From: Actinomycetes bacterium
GTDB taxonomy: Bacteria > Actinomycetota > UBA4738 > HRBIN12
Length of the DNA: 56,679 nt
Reading direction: 5' to 3'
Assembly: GCA_025351565.1 (NCBI GenBank)
Contig: JANXVR010000072.1
Coordinates: 1 to 56,679 of the forward strand
Shown: in pieces, positions 2,524 to 25,851 of the stretch
Layout of the letters: each line of letters starts with the position of its first letter
Numbering within the stretch: position 1 is the stretch's first letter
Notes under the pieces: generated by a model
The model's database searches: none
The model's input: the letters and a program-made list of their open reading frames with translations, nothing else
What the model was told of the DNA's origin: nothing
Made by a program: the position numbers and the translations under genes

Positions 2524-2605
2524 GGGAGGATGCCCGAGCGGCCAAAGGGAGCGGTCTGTAAAATCGCCGGCGTAGCCTACGAAGGTTCGAATCCTTCTCC
2601 TCCCA
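2524..2605 (+). tRNA. tRNA-Tyr (anticodon GTA), class II with extra arm
   Basis: Acceptor GGGAGGA/TCCTCCC, anticodon arm GCGGT-CTGTAAA-ATCGC, T arm GAAGG-TTCGAAT-CCTTC, discriminator A, no encoded CCA. Confidence 0.92.
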
Positions 2606-2692
2606 CGGACGAGCGAACCGACCGACCGACCAACCAACCATGTGATGTGTCGGGGCACCGTGGACGGATGTGTCGGGCATCGTAGCCACCAT

Positions 2693-2890
2693 TCATGATC
2701 CCTGCGGTTGGTAGTCTCGGCTCGGATCAGCGTCAGGTGCCCGAGCAACTCTCCATCCACGGACACGACGCGGACATCGAGCCCGTGTACGAGCCGGATC
2801 TCGCGCTTGCCTCGACGCGTCGCCCCAATGCCGAGGTGGGCACCTTGGTCCGGTGACGAAGCGTCACCCGTACGCGCTTGTCGATCCGGT
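2693..2890 (-). pseudogene. C-terminal remnant of IS481-like integrase-core transposase
   Basis: Across two frames: DRIDKRVRVTLRHRTKV / HLGIGATRRGKREIRLVHGLDVRVVSVDGELLGHLTL / LDPSRDYQPQGS-stop; resembles the usual '...ELLRELTLDPTRDYQP' transposase tail, frameshifted. Confidence 0.6.
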
Positions 2891-2991
2891 CCCTGCGCGC
2901 ACCCTGGCAACGACGATCTTCGGCCCGGAGGGACGGGCCATGTCCGAAAGCCACGGTTGCGGTACCACCGCAGCGGGTGAAAGATTCGGGC

Positions 2992-4338
2992 GTGGACCTT
3001 CCTGAGACCCGCTATGCGAAGAGTGCCGATGGCCTCTCCATCGCGTACCAGGTGTTCGGGACCGGCGCCGACCTCCTGTTCGTCCCGGGCTACATGTCGA
3101 ACCTCGAGCTCAACTGGGACCTTCCTGCGTACGCTGGTTTCCTCCGCCGGCTCGCGTCGTTCTCCCGCGTCATCGTCGTGGATCGGCGCGGCACAGGGCT
3201 CTCCGACCGTCTCTCGCCCGATGACCAACCGCCGCTGGAGATCCTGATGGAGGACCTCGGCCGCGTGCTGGATGAGGTTGAGTCCGATCGAGCGACCGTC
3301 GCCGGCTTCCTCGATGGCGGCTACCTGTGCACGCTCTTCGCGGCGACCCGTCCCGAACGGACCCAGGCCCTGGTGCTGTACGGGACGTCCGCCACCGGGA
3401 AGTGGTCGCCCGACTACCCGTGGCAGTGGAAGCCCGACCGTTGGGAGAGCTTCATGGACGAGATGGCGTCGGGTTGGGGGAGTCAGAGCTTCGCCGACGA
3501 CGTGCTGGAGTGGTACGCGCCGAACGCGTACCGAGACGAGACCACGAGGCGCTGGTGGGGTCGCTACCAGCGACTGTCGGCGAGTCCGGGATCGGCGGTC
3601 GCGCTCGAACGCCTGTACAGCCAGACCGACGTGCGGGACGTCTTGCCGTCGATCCGTGTCCCCACCCTCGTGCTCCACCGACGAGAAGACCCGGCGGATC
3701 CGGTGGAGGGCGCGCGATATATCGCTAGCGAGGTCCCGGGAGCGAAGTACGTCGAACTCGAGGGCGTCGATAGCCCGCCGTGGGCGGGCGACTCGAGCGC
3801 CATCGCCGACGAGATCGAAGAGTTCCTGACCGGCATGCGCCGAGCACCAGAGCCAGACCGCGTGCTATCCACCGTCCTGTTCACCGACATCGTCGGTTCG
3901 ACCGAGCAACTCGCGCGGATCGGAGACAAGCCGTGGAAGGACCTGCTGGCGCGACACGACGAGCTGTCGAAGGCGGAGGTCGAGCAGGCGCGCGGAACCT
4001 ACGTGGACTCGACCGGCGACGGTGTCTTCGCAACGTTCGACGGACCGGCGCGCGCCGTTCGGTGCGCGAGGGCCATCGGCGGGGCGATACGCCCGCTGGG
4101 GATCGAGATCCGAGCGGGCTGCCACACGGGTGAGATCGAGCTCGCAGGCGACGCGGTGCGCGGCATCGCCGTCCATATCGGAGCCAGGGTTGCGGCGATG
4201 GCCGGGCCTTCTGAGGTGCTCGTCTCTTCCACGGTGAAGGACCTCGTTGCCGGCTCGGGCCTCACGTTCGCAGACGCCGGCGAGCACGAGCTAAAGGGCG
4301 TCCCCGATCGCTGGCACCTGTATCGGGTGGTGAAGTAG
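2992..4338 (+). CDS. Alpha/beta hydrolase fused to class III adenylate/guanylate cyclase domain (copy 1)
   Basis: GTG start VDLPETRYAKSADGLSIAYQVFG; C-terminal cyclase VLFTDIVGSTEQLARIGD...STGDGVFATFDGPARAVRCA...HTGEIEL...VSSTVKDLVAGSG. Confidence 0.88.
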   Translation: MDLPETRYAKSADGLSIAYQVFGTGADLLFVPGYMSNLELNWDLPAYAGFLRRLASFSRVIVVDRRGTGLSDRLSPDDQPPLEILMEDLGRVLDEVESDRATVAGFLDGGYLCTLFAATRPERTQALVLYGTSATGKWSPDYPWQWKPDRWESFMDEMASGWGSQSFADDVLEWYAPNAYRDETTRRWWGRYQRLSASPGSAVALERLYSQTDVRDVLPSIRVPTLVLHRREDPADPVEGARYIASEVPGAKYVELEGVDSPPWAGDSSAIADEIEEFLTGMRRAPEPDRVLSTVLFTDIVGSTEQLARIGDKPWKDLLARHDELSKAEVEQARGTYVDSTGDGVFATFDGPARAVRCARAIGGAIRPLGIEIRAGCHTGEIELAGDAVRGIAVHIGARVAAMAGPSEVLVSSTVKDLVAGSGLTFADAGEHELKGVPDRWHLYRVVK

Positions 4339-4348
4339 GTCACTTCGC

Positions 4349-4636
4349 TCATGTGACCTCGGTAACGTCCGGATCTTTGAGCAGGAACTCGATCGGACCG
4401 AACCCGACGACCTCGTCTGAGATCTCGTTCACGACGCGAGCGAGCTCGCGCTGGGGAAGGATGGCTCCGCTCGCGCGCAGGATCGCGAGCGCCTCCTCGC
4501 GCACCCGCAGGCGCCGCTCCGTGCGAGGCGGCGCCGCGAGCGCGCTCGCATCCACGCGCTGACGCAGCTGCTCGCGAAGATCCGCCCGCACGCTGGCGAG
4601 AACGTTCGCTCGCTGCCCAGCCTTCTCCACGACCAT
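4349..4636 (-). CDS. Truncated CpaF/TadA-type secretion ATPase N-terminal domain (copy 1, intact 95-aa ORF)
   Basis: MVVEKAGQRANVLASVRADLREQLRQRV...LARVVNEISDEVVGFGPIEFLLKDPDVTEVT-stop; ends where CpaF normally continues into VNG. Confidence 0.65.
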   Translation of the reverse strand: MVVEKAGQRANVLASVRADLREQLRQRVDASALAAPPRTERRLRVREEALAILRASGAILPQRELARVVNEISDEVVGFGPIEFLLKDPDVTEVT

Positions 4637-4894
4637 CTCGCTCCTAAAGTGCATGGGGAAGACCACACACCTGCGAGGGAGAGGAGGCGGCGGCCGGACC
4701 GAGGGAGCCGACCACCGAAGGGAGTGGAAGGCTAACGCGGCTCGGCGAACAGGTGAATCCCCAGACCGACCGATTCGCAGGACTTGTCGGGGGACTCGAT
4801 GGCGGCGCATCGGCCCACCTGCTGTGACGAGGGTCGCATCTCGACCGATGCCGACTCAGGCCACGGGCCCCCTGCGGGAGCGCGTTCGTGCCGC

Positions 4895-5030
4895 TCAGTC
4901 CTTCGCTGCCACGTCGGCAGACGGTTCTTCAGGCGGCTCGAGATAGATGTATCGGCAGACCTCGACGAACCCCATCCCTCGATAGACCTCCACCGCCATC
5001 TCGCGGCCTCGTCTTCGAAGAGCGTTGACG
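4895..5030 (-). pseudogene. C-terminal remnant of GNAT-like acetyltransferase
   Basis: Reverse reading ...GREMAVEVYRGMGFVEVCRYIYLEPPEEPSADVAAKD-stop; no N-terminal portion present. Confidence 0.4.
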
Positions 5031-5038
5031 CCTGAACC

Positions 5039-5875
5039 TCAGCTGGGGTGCGCCGCCACTCTCAACAAGCCATCCGTGAGCGTAACGGCCTTGCCCAGAA
5101 CGATCACTCGATCGCCGCCGCACTCGACACCGACGAGCCCTGGCCTCGCTGAAGCCTGAAGGCCGACAAGCGCTTGCCGATCCAGCCGGTCAGCCCAGAA
5201 CGGCGCGAGCACGGTATGCGCGCTGCCCGTGACCGGATCTTCGTCGATACCTGCGTTCGGAGCGAACACCCGCGACACGAAGTCATACGGCCTCCCTACA
5301 TCAGCGACCGCGGTGGCGATTACTGCGAGGGCGTCGATCCGAGCGACTCCTGCGATGTCAGGCGTTAGCTCACGTACGGTCCTTTCGTCGACGACGAGGG
5401 CCAATAGCATCCCGTTGCCGCCTCGGCCAACCCACTCCACTTGTGCGTCGAGCGAGTCAATCAAGCCCGACGGAACATCCATCTGCGCCGGTGGCCAAGC
5501 AGGAAAGTCCATCGCCAACGAGCCATCTCCCCGCTGGGTGACAGTGAGGACGCCGCTGCGGGTAGCGAACCGGATCGGACTGGCCACGCCATCCTCGAGA
5601 AGACAGTGCGCGGACGCGAGCGTCGCGTGGCCACAGAGATCCACCTCCATCCTCGGCGTGAACCACCGTAACCGGAAGTCTGCGTCTGACGACGTCTCAC
5701 GTATGACGAACGCGGTGTCCGAAACGTTCATCTCGCACGCGAGTGCCAGCATCCATTCATCGGGCGGAGCTTTATCGAGCATGACCACAGCGGCAGGGTT
5801 GCCGCTGAACGGTCTCTCCGTGAAGGCGTCCACCGTTCTCAGCTGTATCTCGGCCACGGCGCAAGGGTAGCCCAT
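5039..5875 (-). CDS. PhzF family isomerase/epimerase
   Basis: 278 aa; VDAFTERPFSGNPAAVVML, RWFTPRMEVDLCGHATLASAH, NAGIDEDPVTGSAHTVLAPFW. Confidence 0.9.
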   Translation of the reverse strand: MGYPCAVAEIQLRTVDAFTERPFSGNPAAVVMLDKAPPDEWMLALACEMNVSDTAFVIRETSSDADFRLRWFTPRMEVDLCGHATLASAHCLLEDGVASPIRFATRSGVLTVTQRGDGSLAMDFPAWPPAQMDVPSGLIDSLDAQVEWVGRGGNGMLLALVVDERTVRELTPDIAGVARIDALAVIATAVADVGRPYDFVSRVFAPNAGIDEDPVTGSAHTVLAPFWADRLDRQALVGLQASARPGLVGVECGGDRVIVLGKAVTLTDGLLRVAAHPS

Positions 5876-5938
5876 CGTCGGCGAGAGCGTCCGAGCGAGC
5901 TGGCGGGGTACGGCGGTGAAAGAAGGTACGATACGTTC

Positions 5939-6138
5939 GTGGAGATTCTGGAAACCCGCTACGCGAAGACTCCGGACGGCCTCTCCATCGCATACCAGAT
6001 CATCGGGGATGGCGCGACCGATCTCGTCTACGTACCGGGCTTCGCGTCAAACCTCGATACGACTGGGAGAATCCGAGGTACGCCCGGTTCCTCCGCCGGC
6101 TCGGCTCGCTCTTCCGCCTCATCGTTCTCGACCGGCGG
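5939..6138 (+). pseudogene. 5' fragment of the hydrolase-cyclase family (copy 2), 1-nt frameshift then truncated
   Basis: MEILETRYAKTPDGLSIAYQIIGDGATDLVYVPGFASNL then, after ~1-nt loss near 6057, DWENPRYARFLRRLGSLFRLIVLDRR; homology to copy 1 stops there. Confidence 0.75.
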
Positions 6139-6152
6139 AGCTGGCCCATATC

Positions 6153-7253
6153 GTGCTTGAAGAAGACGTTGACGTCCTGATCGTCGGAGCGCGCGTCGCC
6201 GGTTCGGTCCTTGCGGCGCTACTCGGCCAGGATGGACAGCAGGTTCTGGTGATCGACCGCGCGACGTTCCCGAGCGGCACGCTTTCTACGCACTTCTTCC
6301 GGGGTGAAGGATGCGTCGGGGTCCTGCAGCGCCTGGGCGTCCTCGAAGAAGTCCTCTCCTTCGGGTCCCCTCCATTGGTGCGTGAGTACAACGCGGATGC
6401 GACAGACGGCTCATCTACGGTCGATCCGCCGCAAACCCCTGGCGAGGTCGGGTTCAACCTGTCGGTGCGGCGGGAGACGCTAGACGGGGTTCTCGTCGAA
6501 CGCGCCCGCCGCGAGCCTACGGTGGAGGTACGGGAAGCAACGACGCTCCAGGCGATAGTGCGTGAGGGAGATCGGGTGACCGGAGGGGTGATCGCCGACG
6601 GGGCCGGCACACGTCTGATCCGCGCTCGGCTGGTGATCGGCGCGGATGGGCACTCCTCCCGTGTCGCGAAGCTCGTAGATGCACCGATCCAGCAAGAGAT
6701 CCCGCCATCACGAGCGATGTACTACCGCTATATCCAGGGGCTGGAGGGGCCCGGCGGAAAGCCGGACGGTCCGGAGTTCTCCCTTGGGGACGACGAGCTC
6801 GTCTACGTCTTTCCAAGCGACGGGGGGTTCGCGTGCGTCGCGTTGTCGCTGAACCTCGATGACTACCGAACGGTACGCAGGGACGCCGATCGTGCCTTCC
6901 AGGCTCGGGTAGCCGGTCACCCCTTCATCGCCGGTCGTATCGAGAAAGCTTCGTGGTGCGGCCGGCTTTGGGCGTGCGGGCCCAGGCCGTCGCTGGTCAG
7001 GGTTCCAACCGGGCCGGGTTGGGCGCTCGTCGGGGATGCGTCCATGTACCAGGACCCCTGGACAGGGCTCGGGATGGACAATGCGGCGACGCATGCGACG
7101 TTCCTCGCAGAGGCTGTCGATGACATCTTGTCGGGAACGGATGAGTCGGTGGCCTGGGCCGACTTCCACCGAAGGCGAGACGAGCACGCGATCTCCGGGT
7201 TCCTGGAGACCGCCGATCTCGCTCTAGACCTCAACGCTCTCCGCAGCGGATAG
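6153..7253 (+). CDS. FAD-dependent oxidoreductase/monooxygenase
   Basis: GTG start; VDVLIVGARVAGSVLAALLGQDGQQVLVIDRATFPSGTLSTHFFRG ... GWALVGDASMYQDPWTGLGMDNA. Confidence 0.8.
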   Translation: MLEEDVDVLIVGARVAGSVLAALLGQDGQQVLVIDRATFPSGTLSTHFFRGEGCVGVLQRLGVLEEVLSFGSPPLVREYNADATDGSSTVDPPQTPGEVGFNLSVRRETLDGVLVERARREPTVEVREATTLQAIVREGDRVTGGVIADGAGTRLIRARLVIGADGHSSRVAKLVDAPIQQEIPPSRAMYYRYIQGLEGPGGKPDGPEFSLGDDELVYVFPSDGGFACVALSLNLDDYRTVRRDADRAFQARVAGHPFIAGRIEKASWCGRLWACGPRPSLVRVPTGPGWALVGDASMYQDPWTGLGMDNAATHATFLAEAVDDILSGTDESVAWADFHRRRDEHAISGFLETADLALDLNALRSG

Positions 7254-7262
7254 CGGCAGCAT

Positions 7263-7289
7263 CCCGGGGGTCGAGAAGGACACCCCGGG
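7263..7289 (+). terminator. Possible hairpin after FAD oxidoreductase gene
   Basis: CCCGGGG ... CCCCGGG, 10 bp past the stop codon; long loop, no T-tract. Confidence 0.3.
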
Positions 7290-7424
7290 TGGCGGGCGAA
7301 CGAGCCTGAGCCAGCCGGTCAACGAGACCGCAGGTCGCCTGTAGCGACCGCCCATGCGAAGTCAAAGAGAATAGGCACCTTCGCAAGAGTTGCGTCCCGG
7401 TGACCGCCAAGGGAGTATCGGCCG

Positions 7425-8770
7425 ATGACGGCGAACTCGACGTTCGGCTACGCGAAGACCGACGACGGTATCTACCTCGGCTATCGGGTCGACGGCGACG
7501 GTTCGATCGACATCGTCAGTCAATCGACTGGCCGGGCAACATCGACCTGGAATGGGGGGATCCCTTCTCGGGCGGTTGGCTGCGCGAGCTGCGTTCGTTC
7601 TCCCGGGTGATCACGCACGACCCGCGTGGGATCGGGCTGTCGAGCCGCAACGTCGATCTCCCAACGCTCGAGACCCGCGTGTCCGACCTCATGACAGTGC
7701 TGAACACGATCGGAATCCGTCGACCCGTGCTCAACGGGGCTATGGCCACCGGCGCGGTGAACATCTTGGCGGCCGCGATGCGGCCGCGACTCGCCCGGGC
7801 GATCGTCTGGTCCGAGCCGACGCCTCGCTACGCGTGGGCCGAGGACTTCCCTTGGGGCGTCACGCCCGAGGACCTGCAAGGCGAGCTCGACTTCATCGAA
7901 CTGTGGGGGACCGACGCGTACGGGAAGGCATTCCTGGAGGAACAGGGGGCGCTGGGGAACAGGTTCCCTGCCGACCTGGCTCCGCACATGGCGGCGGGGA
8001 CCCGTGGCTCGTGCACACCCGACGTCGCCCGGGGGATGGTGAAGATCTGGGCCGAGATCGACGTCCGGAACGTGCTCGACGCCGTGCGAACCCCCACGCT
8101 GCTGCTCGTGCACAAGGAGCGGGAGGGCGCCGTCGACGTCGCCGAGTACATCGCGTCCAAGATGCCCGCGGCCGAGGTCCGGGCGATGCCGGGCGATGCC
8201 TGGAGTCCGGAGGAGATTCCCGCGTGGGTCGAGCAGATCCGGGACTTCATCGGCGTGGAGCGGCCCCCCGCCGCCCAGAGCACCGTTCTGGCCACGGTGC
8301 TGTTCACCGACATCGTCGGTTCCACAGAGCGGTCCGCCGAGATGGGAGACCGGGATTGGAAAGACCTCGTCCAGCGGCATCACGCGATCGTGCGCGAGTC
8401 GCTGCATCGGTTCGACGCAACCGAGGTCGATACGGCAGGTGACGGCTTCTACGCCACGTTCGACGGACCTGCACGCGGCATCCGGTGCGCCCTCGACATC
8501 GCGGAGCGTGTTCTAGAGCTCGGTATCGAGGTACGTGCTGGCATCCACACCGGTGAGTGCGAGATGATCGACGGGAAGGTCGGCGGGTTGGCCGTCTCGA
8601 TCGGTGCCCGGGTCGCAGCGAACGCCGGTCCCTCCGAGGTGCTGGTGTCGCAGACGGTGAGGGACCTGGTCGCCGGCTCCGGGCTCGCCTTCGAGGACGC
8701 CGGCGAGCATGAACTGAAGGGTGTGCCCGACCGCTGGCGCCTCTACCGGGTCGTGAACGAATCTGCATAA
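7425..8770 (+). pseudogene. Alpha/beta hydrolase-class III cyclase (copy 3), frameshifted near its 5' end
   Basis: MTANSTFGYAKTDDGIYLGYRVDGDGSIDIV (frame of 7425) continues as SIDWPGNIDLEWGDPFSGGW... in the frame of ORF 7400-8770; ~1-nt deletion at ~7518 relative to copy 4. Confidence 0.7.
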
Positions 8771-8907
8771 GGGTCTCGTCGACCGGGCTGAGATCAGAGG
8801 TCACGACCGCGCATGCCAACATTTCTTACTTGGGCACCTTGTGTCTGGGGGACCGTGCTAAGGGGAGAGCGCTTGCGGTCCGGAGGTGCCGAAGTCAGGA
8901 TACGGTC

Positions 8908-10242
8908 GTGGAGATCCCAGACACCCACTACGCCGTCACTCCGGACGGCGTCTACATCGCCTACCAAGTCTTCGGCGATGGCCCGATCGATGTGGTCTGG
9001 CAGTTGGACTGGCCCGGCAACATCGACATGGAGGGGGAAGATCCGCTTAGCGGACTTTGGATCCGCGAGGTCGCCTCGTTCGCGCGGGTGATCTTGCACG
9101 ATCGCCGGGGCATCGGGTTGTCGAGCCGCAACGTGGCACTCCCCAACCTCGAGACGAGGGTCTCCGACCTGCTCACCGTGATGGACGCTGTCGGATCGGA
9201 GCGGCCGATCTTGACGGGGGTCTTCGAATCGGGGGCTCCGAACGCGTTGCTCGCGGCTTCCAAGCCGGAGCGGGTGCACTCGATGGTGTGGATGGAACCG
9301 AACCCGCGGTGCGCCTGGGCATCCGACTACCCCTGGGGCCGAACTCCTGCGGACATGGAAGCCGAGTTCCGTGACATCGAGCTGTGGGGCACCTTCGCGT
9401 ACGGTCGAGCGTCTCTCCAAGTCGAGGCGTCTCGCGGCAACGTGATGCCGGACTCCGAGGGCGCCTTCCTCGCTAAGGCGAGCCGGAACGCCTGCACGCC
9501 CGACGTCGCACGAGCTCTCACGAAGATCTGGTACGAGTCTGACGTCCGAGGCGTCCTTCCCGCGATGCAGGTGCCGACGTCTATCCTCGCCAGAACCGGC
9601 GACTTCGATCGAGCCAAGTACGTCGTGTCGCTGATCCCGGGAGCCGAGTTGCGGGAGATACCGGGTGACGCGTGGACGGAGGAGACCGTACGGGCCTTCG
9701 CGGAGGAGATCCGTCGCGTCGCCGGGGTAAGACCGCCGGCAGAGTATCTCGATCGGATGCTCGCTACGGTGCTATTCACCGACATCGTCGGGTCGACGGA
9801 GCAGCTTAGCCGGCTGGGCGACGCAGAGTGGCGCTCGATCCTTGCTCGCCACGACGAGCGCGCTCGCGCGGAGATCGAACGTCACCGAGGCCGGTACGTG
9901 GATTCCACGGGCGACGGACTCTTGGCGACATTCGACGGCCCCGCTCGTGCAGTCCGATGTGCCCAGGCGATCGGTTCATCGGTCCACGACCTGGGGGTAC
10001 AGATCCGCGCTGGCGTGCACACGGGCGAAATCGAACTTGATGGAGACGCCATCCGGGGCATCGCGGTTCATATCGGAGCAAGGGTGGCCGCGCTCGGGGG
10101 TCCGTCAGAAGTCCTGGTCTCACAGACCGTCAAGGACCTGGTAGCCGGTTCGGGCCTGGTCTTCGAAGACCGAGGTGAGCACGAGCTGAAGGGTGTGCCC
10201 GACCGCTGGCGCCTCTACCGGGTCGTGAACGAATCTGCATAA
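8908..10242 (+). CDS. Alpha/beta hydrolase-class III adenylate/guanylate cyclase (copy 4)
   Basis: GTG start VEIPDTHYAVTPDGVYIAYQVFGDGPIDVVWQLDWPGNID...; cyclase domain ATVLFTDIVGSTEQLSRLGDAEW...STGDGLLATFDGPARAVRCAQ. Confidence 0.87.
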   Translation: MEIPDTHYAVTPDGVYIAYQVFGDGPIDVVWQLDWPGNIDMEGEDPLSGLWIREVASFARVILHDRRGIGLSSRNVALPNLETRVSDLLTVMDAVGSERPILTGVFESGAPNALLAASKPERVHSMVWMEPNPRCAWASDYPWGRTPADMEAEFRDIELWGTFAYGRASLQVEASRGNVMPDSEGAFLAKASRNACTPDVARALTKIWYESDVRGVLPAMQVPTSILARTGDFDRAKYVVSLIPGAELREIPGDAWTEETVRAFAEEIRRVAGVRPPAEYLDRMLATVLFTDIVGSTEQLSRLGDAEWRSILARHDERARAEIERHRGRYVDSTGDGLLATFDGPARAVRCAQAIGSSVHDLGVQIRAGVHTGEIELDGDAIRGIAVHIGARVAALGGPSEVLVSQTVKDLVAGSGLVFEDRGEHELKGVPDRWRLYRVVNESA

Positions 10243-10329
10243 GGGTCTCGCCGACCGGGATGAGATCAGAGGTCACGACCGCGCATGCGAACTTGCCAAG
10301 ATATCTCTGCTCTGGGCGGTGGAAGTAGG

Positions 10330-10607
10330 TCACTTTGCGCGGGTGACCTCGGTTACGTCGGGCTCCTTCAGAAGGAACTCGATCGGACCGAACCCGACGA
10401 CCTCGTCTGAGATCTCGTTCACGACGCGAGCGAGCTCGCTCGCTGGGGAAGGATAGCTCCGCTCGCGCGCAGGATCGCGAGCGCTTCCTCGCGAACCCGC
10501 ACACGGCGCGCGGTGCGAGGCGCGGCTGCCAATCCCCGCGCATCGACCCGCTGCCGCAGCTGTTCGCTCAGCTGCCGGCGAACCAACAGCAGGGCGTCCG
10601 CGCTCAC
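10330..10607 (-). pseudogene. Truncated CpaF N-terminal domain (copy 2), 2-bp insertion frameshift
   Basis: MSADALLLVRRQLSEQLRQRVDARGLAAAPRTARRVRVREEALAILRASGAILPQR then frame change; the downstream DNA still encodes NEISDEVVGFGPIEFLLKEPDVTEVTRAK-stop. Confidence 0.65.
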
Positions 10608-10948
10608 ACCCTCACCCCCGACACGTCTACCGTTCGCTCCTCGATCACCTCAGGACCGACCAACCATTCGAGGGAGAAGGATCCGGCTGGGGATCGATGC
10701 CACCGGCCGGAGGGGATGCCTCAACGCTAGCGCTTGGCACCGGAACGGACGATTCCCAGCGCGGCCGATTCCGATCCTCCGTCGGGGGACCTTGCGAAGC
10801 ACCAGCGGGTGAGCGAACCCGGTGATCGTGCTGTCGCTGGCGTCGCTCCGGCACGGCGTGAACCTCGGTCTGGTACCAGCAGAGTCGCCACACGACGGCC
10901 CGAGCGTCTGTCCGAAGCCTCCAGGCACCCGACCGGATCGGCTGTCCC

Positions 10949-11022
10949 AGTGGGCAGTCGGTGGGCAGTCGGCGGGGCAAACCCGCAGGTCACAGGGGTT
11001 GACAGAATCCTTCTCCTCCCAC
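10949..11022 (+). repeat. Att-like repeat R1: 11-bp arm units + 34 bp + 18-bp tRNA-Tyr 3'-end copy
   Basis: AGTGGGCAGTC GGTGGGCAGTC, 34 bp, GAATCCTTCTCCTCCCAC (identical to tRNA positions 2589-2606). Confidence 0.75.
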
Positions 11023-11116
11023 GACCGACCGACGACGGAGCTTGGCCCTCGCCTGCTCGTAGCTTGAACACCGCACAGGTGGCGAGCGTTGAGTCACCGC
11101 CGCTCGCCACGTCCTA

Positions 11117-11450
11117 TCAGAAGGACACCCAGCCACTCTTCTCAACGTCGTACGGCTTGATGACGACCTTCACCTTCCGGTCGCGTCCGACAACGGCCTG
11201 GAAGGCGATGGCCATCCTCGTCGCCAGATCTTGAAGCGCGTCCCTGGTTCGAGCAGGTCCCTCCCACGGATCCAAGAAGATCCGGGTCACCGCCGGGGAG
11301 AAGCCATCAGGAGCCCACACGGGAACGAAGTCAACCTCGTCGTCGTGTATCGCGAGCGCTGGCATGCTCTTTGATCGCTTGACGCAAGGCCTCCTCGATA
11401 GCTGAGAGTGGGTCCTCCCTCCTCAGATTGAAGACGGTGACAGGCGGCAT
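11117..11450 (-). pseudogene. Conserved small protein of unknown function, apparently frameshifted
   Basis: MPPVTVFNLRREDPLSAIEEALRQAIK (frame from 11450) continues as SMPALAIHDDEVDFVPVWAPDGFSPAVTRIFLDPWE... (frame of ORF 11117-11365) if one T of the TTT run at 11370-11372 is removed. Confidence 0.5.
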
Positions 11451-11532
11451 GGCTCCTCTCCTTGTCGGTCGGGTCGTCTCGCTTGCTCCTGACCGCCACA
11501 CCCTAGCCGTGTAGGCCGTAGGGTTAGGCGCC

Positions 11533-12063
11533 ATGACGATCGAGCTCGTCTTCGAGACCCACTTGACGACCGAGGACAACGAGCGGGGCGCCGCCACCGG
11601 GTGGCGCCCCGGGAAGCTGTCCGCTGCTGGCCGCGAGCAAGCAGGGCAGATGGGCCGGAGGCGCACGAACTACGGGATCGAGGCCATCTTCACGTCCGAC
11701 CTGGCAAGGGCCATCGAGTCGGTGCGAATCGCGTTCCTTGACGCCACGGTCCCGGTTTTCATGGACTGGCGGCTCCGCGAGTGCGACTACGGCGAGATGA
11801 CGGGCATCGACCCCGGCCCGCTCGAACGAACCGAGCACATCGATATCCCGTACCCCTCTGGGGAGAGCTGGCGCCAAGCCGTCGAACGGGTCGGTTGGTT
11901 CACTCGTGACCTAGGGGCCAGGCGGGACTGGTCGCGTCTCCTCGTCGTCGGACACGTCGCGACGTGGCGAGGCTTGGAGCACTCGATCAACGGGACCCCT
12001 TTGGAGCCGCTCGTTGCGACGCCGTTCGAGTGGCAGGAGGGGTGGGAGTACCGTGTGGACTGA
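11533..12063 (+). CDS. Histidine phosphatase superfamily (phosphoglycerate mutase-like) protein
   Basis: 176 aa; LVFETHLTTEDNERGAATGWRPGKLSAAGREQAGQMGRR ... IFTSDLARAIESVRIA ... LLVVGHVATWRGLEH. Confidence 0.75.
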   Translation: MTIELVFETHLTTEDNERGAATGWRPGKLSAAGREQAGQMGRRRTNYGIEAIFTSDLARAIESVRIAFLDATVPVFMDWRLRECDYGEMTGIDPGPLERTEHIDIPYPSGESWRQAVERVGWFTRDLGARRDWSRLLVVGHVATWRGLEHSINGTPLEPLVATPFEWQEGWEYRVD

Positions 12064-12137
12064 GATCGCGTTTCAGCGCTATCGGCTCGCGACCCCCGAC
12101 AGGTAGCGGGTTCGTGCCGATCCGTGTCCCTGCAGCC

Positions 12138-12200
12138 GGTGGGCAGTCGAAGAGGCATCGCGGCAGGTCAGAGGGGGCGACATGATCCTCCTCCTCTCAG
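12138..12200 (+). repeat. Att-like repeat R2 (degenerate)
   Basis: GGTGGGCAGTC, 34 bp, then TGATCCTCCTCCTCTCAG, a diverged form of the 18-bp core. Confidence 0.5.
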
Positions 12201-12290
12201 GAACGAAGACGGGGTGTTCTCAGAACTGAGGCCCCTGATATCTCAGAAGTCCCTCTGAAGGGCCCGCTACGGCTGCATCTGCGGTCCGAA

Positions 12291-12320
12291 GGGCGTCACG
12301 AGCGCATGCTCATGACGCCC
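12291..12320. repeat. 30-bp imperfect palindrome
   Basis: GGGCGTCACGAGCGCATGCTCATGACGCCC; mismatches only at a few symmetric positions. Confidence 0.5.
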
Positions 12321-12509
12321 AGTGAAGGCGAAGAGGGTCGTTCGGGGGAGATGGGCTAGGCGGGAGGGCCGCGCCCGGTGCCGACCGGGTTGGCCATCGT
12401 ACAGTCATTCAACGGGGCACCGTAGACAGGTGAGCGCGTCGACGAGCGCCCGCCCGCCGCAGCTGGAATCTGGCGGACCAGACCGCACACCTCAGCCGGA
12501 GGGTGTTGA

Positions 12510-12902
12510 ATGGTCGCGATGGCTCGCGAGGAAGGGTCTTCGCCCGACGGTCAGCTGATCTGGTTCGTCACATGGATGATCGTCGGCTTGGCCTACGCCG
12601 TCGGGATCCTCGGTGTCTTGACCGTCGGCCTCGTCTTCCTGGCGCTTGCCGTGATCGCCTCGGTTCTCTTGAGTTCACGCGGAAGAGGGCGGGTCGCGCT
12701 GCCAGGAATCTCGTCCGGGGTCGGCGTCGGGTTGCTCTACGTCGCCTTCCTGAATCGCGCAGGTCCTGGGTTGGTCTGTTCGACGACGGCAACCGGGGGG
12801 TCGCACTGCGTCGAGAGGTGGACCCCGTGGCCCTGGCTCGTCATTGGCTTCGCGCTTCTTGTTGGCGGCGGCTTCTGGTTCCGGGTGCTGCGGCGACGGT
12901 GA
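12510..12902 (+). CDS. Small integral membrane protein, unknown function
   Basis: 130 aa with several hydrophobic segments (VGLAYAVGILGVLTVGLVFLALAVIASVLL; WPWLVIGFALLVGGGFWF). Confidence 0.5.
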   Translation: MVAMAREEGSSPDGQLIWFVTWMIVGLAYAVGILGVLTVGLVFLALAVIASVLLSSRGRGRVALPGISSGVGVGLLYVAFLNRAGPGLVCSTTATGGSHCVERWTPWPWLVIGFALLVGGGFWFRVLRRR

Positions 12903-13032
12903 CGGGGCCGTAGATGGGCACCAGGCAGACGGGACCCGGAGCGCGTTCCGGACGGGCCGGTGACGTCCGGACTGACCCGAGATCGTCTTGAATGATCGAC
13001 CGACCCAGGCCTTTCGGGCAGTGCGGTGCTCG

Positions 13033-13572
13033 TCACCCCGACGGCAGTTGATCGAGGTTGAACGTAACGAACCAACGACCCGTGCTCGGGACTCGCTCCA
13101 GGAAGACTCGAAACGCCGGATCAGCCGAGCTCGGATCCTGGTTCGCTATGCAGCGGTCATTCTTCTCGTGCGTCGAGCCCCCGGACTGCACGCCAGCGTC
13201 CGTCGACGGGCTCGACGAGGCGACACCGCCGCTCCCAGTTGAACCCACGCTCTTCGCACCAGCCACGGAGCACAGGGTGCCGGTCAGGATGACGACCGCG
13301 GAGTCATCGGTCACGGTCTCAGATCCAACCGCGATGTTGTTGGCGGTTCCCGTCGGAGGATTGCCAGCGGCGATTACCTCGAGCACGTTCCTCTCCGCTG
13401 GAGTGACGAAAGCAATCGCGCGGTCGTAGTTACCAGCGGCCAGCGCGTTCACGTACGCGACGGCGATCTCCCCCGGCGAGGAACTCAACGTTGGGTCTTG
13501 GCCGGAACTTCCGCGCGAACATGCCACAAGAGCGGCGAGTGCGACGACCAACGCTAATCGGTGCTTTGCCAA
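13033..13572 (-). CDS. Putative secreted lipoprotein (start uncertain)
   Basis: LAKHRLALVVALAALVAC (lipobox LVAC) followed by NTF2-like stretch GEIAVAYVNALAAGNYDRAIAFVTPAERNV; TTG start assumed at 13572. Confidence 0.5.
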   Translation of the reverse strand: MAKHRLALVVALAALVACSRGSSGQDPTLSSSPGEIAVAYVNALAAGNYDRAIAFVTPAERNVLEVIAAGNPPTGTANNIAVGSETVTDDSAVVILTGTLCSVAGAKSVGSTGSGGVASSSPSTDAGVQSGGSTHEKNDRCIANQDPSSADPAFRVFLERVPSTGRWFVTFNLDQLPSG

Positions 13573-13663
13573 GCCGAACGACCGCTGCTCGAGCGCCGGC
13601 GAGCGGCGTCCTGCGCCACGTGGGTTCGAAGCCAGATATAGCTCGCTTGGCTCGGCCCCGTCC

Positions 13664-13737
13664 GGTGGGCAGTCGGTGGGCAGCCAGGATCGCATCACTG
13701 CAGGTCAGATGGGTTGACAGAATCCTTCTCCTCCCAC
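13664..13737 (+). repeat. Att-like repeat R3: two 11-bp arm units + 34 bp + 18-bp tRNA-Tyr 3'-end copy
   Basis: GGTGGGCAGTC GGTGGGCAGCC, 34 bp, GAATCCTTCTCCTCCCAC. Confidence 0.75.
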
Positions 13738-24099: not shown

Positions 24100-24216
24100 A
24101 TCAGGCCGTTCTGAGAACACCCCACGGATGGATATGGCCGTGACCTGCGCTGGCGGGGATGGGGGGTCGTGCGCCTCCCGGCTCGGCAGATGTGCCGCAG
24201 AGGTGCCGATGGTCGC

Positions 24217-25521
24217 TCAGCGCAGAGGAAGAGACCACTGCGTGATGTCACGAGCGACGGACCGCGCGATGACTTTCGGCACGCCTGCCTGGGACGCGAA
24301 CGCCGCCCACTGGGACGTGGCATCAAGAACCTGGTCGATCGCGGTGGAGACCTGCGGGACGGCGAAGCGATCACCAACTTCGACCACGTCGGCCCGCGTG
24401 ATGTCCGTCACGCGTCCGTTCACGGCCATCAAGTGCTGACGGGTCCATCTGCTCTTCGTCGAGTGGGCGTGGGTCACATCGTATGCAGGGGAGACCTTCC
24501 AGCTGCCACCCTTGTGTAGGAGGAACGAGAAGTTCTTCGTGTGATCGTCGCAGTTCGCCGCCGCGACATTGAAGACCATCCTGCGAAAGATCTCGGTGCG
24601 AGCGTCCGGAGGCAGGTCGAGCCGCTTGCACAACAGGAAAAGCTGCGCGTAGTCGTGGGCCCCGATCAGCCTGAAGTCAAGTTCGGCTAGAGCACACATG
24701 GTTTGCGCATGCACCTTCGTTCCGTCCGAGGGACGGTCGAAGCGACGAGTCATGAAGTGCGCTCGTTCCCCCTCCTCGACCAAACGGCATTCGGTCATGT
24801 CGATACCGGCGGCTTTGGCCATGAGGTGATATCCGAACTCGATGCGACCGTAGGAACCGGTTGCACCCATGTCTTCGTCATGGCCAACGCCGTCCAGCTT
24901 CAACACCCAGTGCTCGAAGCCAGGAGGCGCAGGTACCTGACCCGAGCGCAGTTCGCCCGTCGCTGGGTCGAGAGCGACTACGGCCTTGGCCCTGGCACCA
25001 CCTGCCGAGGTGCCGACAGCGATCAGTTCGGATAGGGCCTGCGTGGTTTCCATCTCCGTTGTCATTCGGCCCGCGATGGCGCTTCGTGCGGCCAGGACGA
25101 GGGTCGAAAAGTCGATGGCCGTGGCCTTTTGTGTTCTTGGGCCGCGGATCGGATGGAACTCCAGAGCCCCCACTCCGCGCGTTCCGAGAAATGCCAATCG
25201 ATCCAGGGCTGTTATCCGGTCGGAGGCGATCCCTTCTCTCGCGAGGTAGGCGGTCGTCAGGGCGTTCCCGAAGGCGTCCGGCAGCGAGTCGGCCACCATC
25301 GAGGGAAGGCGCTGGTACGTGCCCGGTTCCAGCGCCGGGAACACGAAGGGTTGACCTGCTGCCCGGATGGGCATCGTGGTGGGCGCCAGCTCGACACCGG
25401 CCTTGGCCCAGGCGGGCTCGTACTCGAACGCGTAGAAGCCCGATCGCTCATCCAGGGCGATCGCGCCTACTCGCGAACCCCAGCACCAGACCTCAACGAC
25501 GTCGACCGGCTTGTATGCCAC
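24217..25521 (-). CDS. hipA: HipA-like serine/threonine kinase toxin
   Basis: 434 aa; VGTSAGGARAKAVVALDPATGEL, EHWVLKLDGVG, NVAAANCDDHTKNFSFLLHKGGSWKVSPAYDVT. Confidence 0.88.
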   Translation of the reverse strand: MAYKPVDVVEVWCWGSRVGAIALDERSGFYAFEYEPAWAKAGVELAPTTMPIRAAGQPFVFPALEPGTYQRLPSMVADSLPDAFGNALTTAYLAREGIASDRITALDRLAFLGTRGVGALEFHPIRGPRTQKATAIDFSTLVLAARSAIAGRMTTEMETTQALSELIAVGTSAGGARAKAVVALDPATGELRSGQVPAPPGFEHWVLKLDGVGHDEDMGATGSYGRIEFGYHLMAKAAGIDMTECRLVEEGERAHFMTRRFDRPSDGTKVHAQTMCALAELDFRLIGAHDYAQLFLLCKRLDLPPDARTEIFRRMVFNVAAANCDDHTKNFSFLLHKGGSWKVSPAYDVTHAHSTKSRWTRQHLMAVNGRVTDITRADVVEVGDRFAVPQVSTAIDQVLDATSQWAAFASQAGVPKVIARSVARDITQWSLPLR

Positions 25522-25524
25522 TCG

Positions 25525-25851
25525 TCACCTCGGGGTTGAAGTGCCGTGGGTGCGCACGCGCACTCTTGTGCGCTGAGCCCGCTGCTTGGCTCGAAGCACC
25601 TGGATGGGGGAGACGGCGATCGGTGGTGACAACGACTCGAGCCAGTCGGTGCGCCCGACTGCCCGCATGACGACGATCAACGTCTTGAGCGATGATCCCT
25701 TGCCTCGCTCGAGGTTGGATACTGCGCCGACCGAGATGTTCGCCAGCTCGGCCAGGCGCTTCTGGTCGAGAGCCCTGACGATCCTCGCGTTTCGGACGTG
25801 CTCACCGATGACCTCTTCCCACTCCTGGGTGGTTCGATCGCCGCTCTCCAC
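25525..25851 (-). CDS. hipB: HipB-like XRE-family antitoxin
   Basis: 108 aa; HVRNARIVRALDQKRLAELANISVGAVSNLERGKGSSLKTLIVVMRAVGRTDWLESL; 3 bp upstream of hipA. Confidence 0.85.
   Translation of the reverse strand: MESGDRTTQEWEEVIGEHVRNARIVRALDQKRLAELANISVGAVSNLERGKGSSLKTLIVVMRAVGRTDWLESLSPPIAVSPIQVLRAKQRAQRTRVRVRTHGTSTPR

Follow-up and report, generated by a model that had tools for sequence, protein, structure and literature searches.

Tandem gene-carrying insertions behind a tRNA-Tyr gene, probably derived from an IS1182-like transposon branch aimed at tRNA 3' ends

INTRODUCTION

IS1272 and TnSha1, both of the IS1182 family, insert into hairpins, replace the hairpin and leave no duplication; TnSha1 uses an alternative end to carry a passenger gene (PMC5678879, PMC4923244). 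Hairpin insertion without target duplication is a trait of IS1272 and not of every IS1182 member. Here we analyzed the 56,679-bp contig JANXVR010000072.1 (the whole of it called the window) from the draft assembly GCA_025351565.1 (2.63 Mb, 293 contigs), which belongs to an uncultivated actinomycetote family. Behind its transfer RNA (tRNA)-Tyr gene lies what is probably a tandem stack of gene-carrying insertions from a branch of IS1182-like DDE transposons that targets tRNA 3' ends. This branch most likely inserts behind tRNA genes in many Actinomycetota, carries other genes along and has gone unrecognized. A literature search, with most subscription journals outside it, found no description of IS1182-like elements that target tRNA genes.

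Islands flanking tRNA genes are routinely ascribed to tyrosine integrases, and those without an integrase are termed remnants. Tycheposons are cargo elements at tRNA genes as well, some of them perhaps mobilized in trans, and differ from the present elements in having active tyrosine recombinases. The elements described here share with tyrosine-integrase islands (Islander, PMC4383910) the target genes, a far end marked by a copied tRNA 3' end and the tandem accretion, whereas an active integrase is absent, the termini are inverted repeats and a DDE transposase faces the tRNA. With the IS1182 family, including IS1272 and TnSha1, they have in common 16-bp terminal inverted repeats and, at scores below the curated cut-off, a DDE transposase with a DDE_Tnp_1_6-type C-terminus; insertion beside hairpin or terminator positions and a possible passenger gene are further likenesses to IS1272 and TnSha1. 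Unlike those two, the present branch targets the 3' ends of tRNA and transfer-messenger RNA (tmRNA) genes, stacks in tandem and co-encodes a tyrosine-recombinase homologue, and its junctions, in contrast to those of IS1272, hold a copy of the tRNA end. Tn7-like elements use a dedicated target-selector protein (reviewed in PMC11406308). A separate protein that chooses a safe, conserved site would be shared with them, although transposase and selector are unrelated and the role is hypothetical here.

RESULTS AND DISCUSSION

Repeat units and transposon termini in the window

The last 18 bases of the tRNA-Tyr gene (from 2589) have exact copies at 11005 and 13720 and a copy with five mismatches at 12183, as a first-pass annotation of this sequence had reported; a tRNA 3' end repeated directly on the far side (11005, 13720) is a trait of tyrosine-integrase islands. 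Each copy closes a 76-bp unit (Table 1) composed, in order, of GTGGGCAGTC arms, GCAGGTCA, GGGTTGACA and the tRNA-Tyr 3'-end copy. The shared GCAGGTCA and the terminal GACA ahead of the core were present at all three sites, again as first described. The same annotation had placed an exact 11-mer 34 bp before every core. This was accurate for sites 1 and 2, where GGTGGGCAGTC (10960-10970 and 12138-12148) ends 34 bp 5' of the core, and not for site 3, where the exact 11-mer (13664-13674) ends 45 bp from the core and the copy at 34 bp (GGTGGGCAGCC, 13675-13685) has one mismatch. The arms are in tandem with an 11-bp period at sites 1 and 3, and in the whole assembly mismatch-free tandem arms occurred at just two of the unit sites. 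Matches to the unit within the assembly were confined to this locus (E values of 6e-40, 4.5e-19 and 2.1e-10; the next one after the tRNA itself, 0.69), and the repeats were thus not scattered away from tRNA-Tyr. As no other place in the assembly matches, the units are not a product of chance. In viral contigs, 45 matches to GTGGGCAGTC..GCAGGTCA were found; they were apparently unrelated, mostly one repeated coding-like sequence, and were discarded.

Overlooked at first were an IS1182-like left terminus, GGGGTGTTCTCAGAAC, which starts at 12211 a short way past the diverged core, and its perfect inverse, GTTCTGAGAACACCCC, at 24108. The left end from 12211 onward stands behind the diverged tRNA copy (12183), displaced from the tRNA itself. 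Following the right terminus, CCCACGGA (24121-24128) equals the tRNA-Tyr end plus flank. Because the inverse terminus at 24108 is followed by this tRNA-Tyr end and flank, the array extends to at least 24.1 kb, past the coordinates of the original finding. The window holds only ends of the IS1182-like branch.

Element ends at the same locus in relatives

Sixty relatives were sampled, 16 from the family of the window's genome, 10 more from its order and none from its genus (individual genomes are numbered with G). Upstream of tRNA-Tyr the gene order is conserved among them, the genes being, by our own reading of their sequences, presumably yajQ and a hemL-like aminotransferase; downstream, no orthologous content is shared. 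In six genomes (G002, G005, G006, G008, G013 and G014) the tRNA-Tyr gene is followed by GGGGTGTTCTCAGAACTGAGGCCCCTGACATCTCAGAAC or a variant, and two G017 contigs have a shorter version. This sequence is a transposon left end; its first several hundred bases encode, facing the tRNA, the C-terminal portion of a DDE transposase that is most similar to IS1182. The remnant matched Pfam DDE_Tnp_1_6 (E = 2.9e-5; 24.8 bits against a cut-off of 25.1) and NCBIfam IS1182 (E = 3.5e-4), both below the curated cut-offs. Against NCBIfam NF033551 the transposase scored 38.6 bits at best, where the cut-off is 270; it is related to IS1182 but lies outside the curated limits, and IS1182-like is its best name. 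In the 60 relatives the remnant was found only at tRNA-Tyr or adjoining these ends.

The inverse GTTCTGAGAACACCCC, exact or near, closes right ends in G014, G008 (three, one decayed), G013 (three), G004 and G002. The elements of the relatives have one layout: at the left end, just behind the tRNA, two direct repeats of the TTCACGAAA type lie about 24 bp apart and the 3' end of the transposase gene points toward the tRNA, while at the right end the inverted terminus is followed by a copy of the tRNA-gene end. The 16-bp terminal inverted repeats GGGGTGTTCTCAGAAC / GTTCTGAGAACACCCC are found in both the relatives and the window. The family core GTTCTGAGAACACCCCAC had no matches in viral contigs, and TTAACCTGTGGGNNNTC had 117, with a right-end context in none of those examined; in GTDB contigs the exact core was found in G002, G013, G014, G004 and one unrelated record.

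The tandem order of tRNA, left end, right end and a further left end was observed in G008 and G014, and tandem element ends at the same locus confirm that tRNA-Tyr is an integration hotspot. The unit directly behind the tRNA-Tyr gene of G002 lies behind a right end in the congeneric G013 (91% and 85%, in two blocks), whose own tRNA-Tyr gene carries another unit. The two congeners are thus polymorphic for insertions at this site, and the most recent element adjoins the tRNA. The pair upholds the successive tandem insertions of the first-pass annotation and answers, as an occupied/displaced polymorphism, its call to compare occupied with empty tRNA-Tyr sites. In the window, the GGGGTGTTCTCAGAACTGAGGCCCCTGACATCTCAGAAC-type sequence follows the tRNA copy at 12183 rather than the tRNA, and the alignment with the relatives spans both. 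Because it runs through the copy and on from 12211, the element ending at 12200 was inserted between the tRNA and its former flank.

The 76-bp units have in common with the right ends of the family their position and orientation, GTGGGNNNTC arms, a GGTCA..GGG.GTT motif and the tRNA end that comes after. Their likeness exceeded that of 498 of 500 column-shuffled controls, a result (2/500) weaker than that of the first test, which took the three units as independent. From these comparisons the units are likely to be right ends of the IS1182-like family.

Distant homologues and a recombinase-like partner gene

Across the phylum, 396 genomes were searched, first with a remnant from the family and next with the full-length transposase of a distant element. 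Eight of the 10 places outside the family adjoin a tRNA or tmRNA gene, namely tRNA-Gly, tRNA-Met, tRNA-Ser (two genomes), tRNA-Leu (three genomes) and tmRNA; the remaining two, of which one is at a contig edge, have no tRNA. The stop codon of the transposase gene faces the RNA gene and lies 189-230 bp from its 3' end (seven measured). Distant left ends have the two-repeat pattern of the window at 12211-12252, a stretch that aligns with left ends behind tRNA-Gly, Leu, Ser, Met and Tyr and tmRNA. Just inside several of them is a strong hairpin, likely a terminator. Right ends were located in G246, G236 and G256, each followed by a tRNA-end copy and then another left end, which is the same logic as the right end followed by the 18-mer in the window. 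The two flanks in G246 share an 11-bp perfect direct repeat, CCGCCACGGGG.

Ahead of the transposase gene, most of the fuller copies that were read have an overlapping same-strand gene, in some cases two of them; none was found in G227 or in the truncated G294b copy. A profile of eight partner proteins matched a XerC-like tyrosine recombinase in PDB (E = 2.9e-10), and two members matched a PHROG integrase family. Substitutions have mostly removed the first catalytic arginine, the histidines and the tyrosine; the box II arginine is invariant. With its catalytic residues mostly lost, the partner itself should not recombine DNA; hypothetically, it may have a role in finding tRNA 3' ends. The operon of partner and transposase, annotated 'hypothetical protein', is carried by Streptomyces clavuligerus pSCL3 (NZ_CP086232.1) and by a Rhodococcus opacus plasmid (NZ_CP130954.1), the latter with two partner genes and a GGGGTGTTCACC left end. 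In the window no partner gene was seen, and no partner search was made in its genome.

Weighing of the interpretations

Several observations speak against deriving the window's stack from this branch. The 76-bp unit gave nothing convincing in the 60 relatives by BLAST or profile, and no significant inverted left terminus and no 16-bp terminal inverted repeats were detected for these GTGGGCAGTC-type units. The tRNA copy is 18 bp long in the window versus 5-16 bp in relatives, and the usual GTGGG arms are absent upstream of the terminus at 24108. The termini at 12211 and 24108 enclose unit 3 and may therefore bound one 11.9-kb element or two elements. No transposase of the branch was found in the window's genome, where a draft assembly can miss it. 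Finally, three plasmid copies (Streptomyces, Rhodococcus) lie away from tRNAs, which means that the targeting is not absolute.

Could the three units instead be right attachment (attR) sites used by a tyrosine integrase acting in trans, with the IS1182-like ends as separate insertions at the same hotspot? They do have the look of attachment (att) sites, with an 18-bp direct repeat of the tRNA 3' end, arms that are one-sided direct repeats and no inverted left terminus. Phage_integrase (PF00589) is absent from the contig, in agreement with the earlier statement that no integrase is local, and matches occur at five places elsewhere in the genome, three of these genes being on short contigs. However, the tRNA-Tyr locus has no PF00589 gene in any of 11 family genomes, neither arms nor unit occur on any integrase-bearing contig of the window's genome, and the units look like right ends of the family transposon. 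We consider attR sites unlikely. The original interpretation as arm and core sites of a tyrosine recombinase probably does not hold, the comparable ends in relatives being terminal inverted repeats of IS1182-like DDE elements and the travelling homologue having mostly lost its catalytic residues.

A local tandem duplication, in which homologous recombination copied one unit-bearing insertion and the three sites are a single event, is very improbable. Diverged internal duplications do exist at the locus (for example, 3946-4245/8369/9841 and 4332-4575/10322-10567), but the segments between the units have no common sequence, the units are 17-30% apart, and the ancestral tRNA flank follows unit 2 alone. 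Integron-like cassette sites or a structured RNA, which the small one- or two-gene segments with a conserved site after each might suggest, have a practically negligible chance, as single-stranded DNA of the three units folded no better than shuffled sequences (z = -0.46, +0.88 and -0.21), Rfam matched the tRNA alone, no covarying pairs were seen and the only PF00589 genes are ordinary ones, all away from the locus; an attC-like or RNA structure was rejected on the folding z-scores and Rfam.

For insertions from the IS1182-like branch, the relatives show that a new element enters between the tRNA and the resident element and pushes the older one downstream. In the window, the 76-bp units would then be right ends, the 18-bp cores duplicated or displaced tRNA 3' ends, and the small segments without a transposase would have been mobilized in trans, a suggestion of the first-pass annotation that we retain as a possibility. 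The degenerate tyrosine-recombinase homologue may read tRNA 3' ends and direct the DDE enzyme there. We propose only tentatively that the branch adopted a catalytically dead tyrosine recombinase as a selector of tRNA and tmRNA 3' ends, stacks cassettes in tandem and supplies a new terminator for the tRNA transcript; this is possible, with the chances somewhat against it. If true, such a selector would account for a class of integrase-less tRNA islands. Tandem insertion by a DDE branch at those very sites, with the tRNA end copied, would look like att sites and invite misreading. If the companion is truly a retired recombinase put to new use in targeting, it would represent a novel means of steering a transposase to conserved positions where insertion does no harm.

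Features and neighboring genes

Table 1. Positions of the tRNA-Tyr gene, element ends and cargo segments in the window
Feature	Position	Strand	Evidence or remark
tRNA-Tyr (GTA), insertion target	2524..2606	+	ARAGORN, Rfam tRNA; last 18 bases 2589-2606
Tetranucleotide-periodic tract (GGAC GAGC GAAC CGAC CGAC CGAC CAAC CAAC CA) directly 3' of tRNA	2607..2640	+	Direct sequence reading
Cargo segment 1: three cyclase/hydrolase-type genes, PhzF-like and FAD-binding genes, cpaF-like fragments	2607..10946		Open reading frames, Pfam
Unit 1, putative right end: arms 10949-10970, GCAGGTCA 10985-10992, GGGTTGACA, tRNA 3'-end copy 11005-11022	10947..11022	+	
Cargo segment 2: small open reading frame 11117-11365 (-); histidine phosphatase gene 11533-12063 (+)	11023..12124		Pfam His_Phos_1, E = 1.7e-22
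Unit 2, older putative right end; diverged tRNA 3'-end copy 12183-12200	12125..12200	+	70% to unit 1; relatives' alignment spans copy into 12211 onward
IS1182-like left end: terminus GGGGTGTTCTCAGAAC 12211-12226, second repeat ATCTCAGAA	12211..12252	+	Exact terminus; single copy in genome
Terminator-like hairpin GGGCGTCAC..GACGCCC	12291..12321	+	Conserved 3' of this left end in relatives
Cargo segment 3: small membrane gene 12510-12902 (+); possible lipoprotein gene 13033-13698 (-)	12330..13661		Open reading frames
Unit 3, putative right end; exact tRNA 3'-end copy 13720-13737	13662..13737	+	83% to unit 1
Right terminus GTTCTGAGAACACCCC + AC	24108..24125	+	Perfect inverse of 12211-12226

Tetranucleotide tracts similar to that behind the tRNA (ACCA/ACCG/CGAC units) also occur in G002, G004, G005 and G011, where they come after the 3' end of tRNA-Tyr or after the right end of an element. 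They could be accumulated target duplications, a footprint at which we only guess, or simple slippage. Right behind the tract, at 2641-2890 (-), a TGTGATGTGTCGGGG-like end lies beside a frameshifted C-terminus (..DPSRDYQP), which we take to be a possible IS481-type transposase remnant and which had no Pfam match; a similar end lies directly 3' of tRNA-Tyr in G003.

The cyclase/hydrolase-type genes of cargo segment 1 (2878-4338, 7400-8770 and 8830-10242) are related and tandem-duplicated, each with an alpha/beta-hydrolase-like part and a nucleotide-cyclase domain, and a homologue is located near tRNA-Tyr in G026 too. Two copies (83-92%) of the apparent N-terminus of a CpaF/TadA-type ATPase gene lie at 4332-4575 and 10322-10567 (-), and a similar fragment was found about 160 bp 3' of the last right end in G008. 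For the genes of cargo segment 3, no Pfam match reached the cut-off. To the immediate right of the terminus at 24108, a 434-aa gene (24217-25851, -) stands beside a small helix-turn-helix gene; judged by eye, the two are perhaps a HipAB-like toxin-antitoxin pair.

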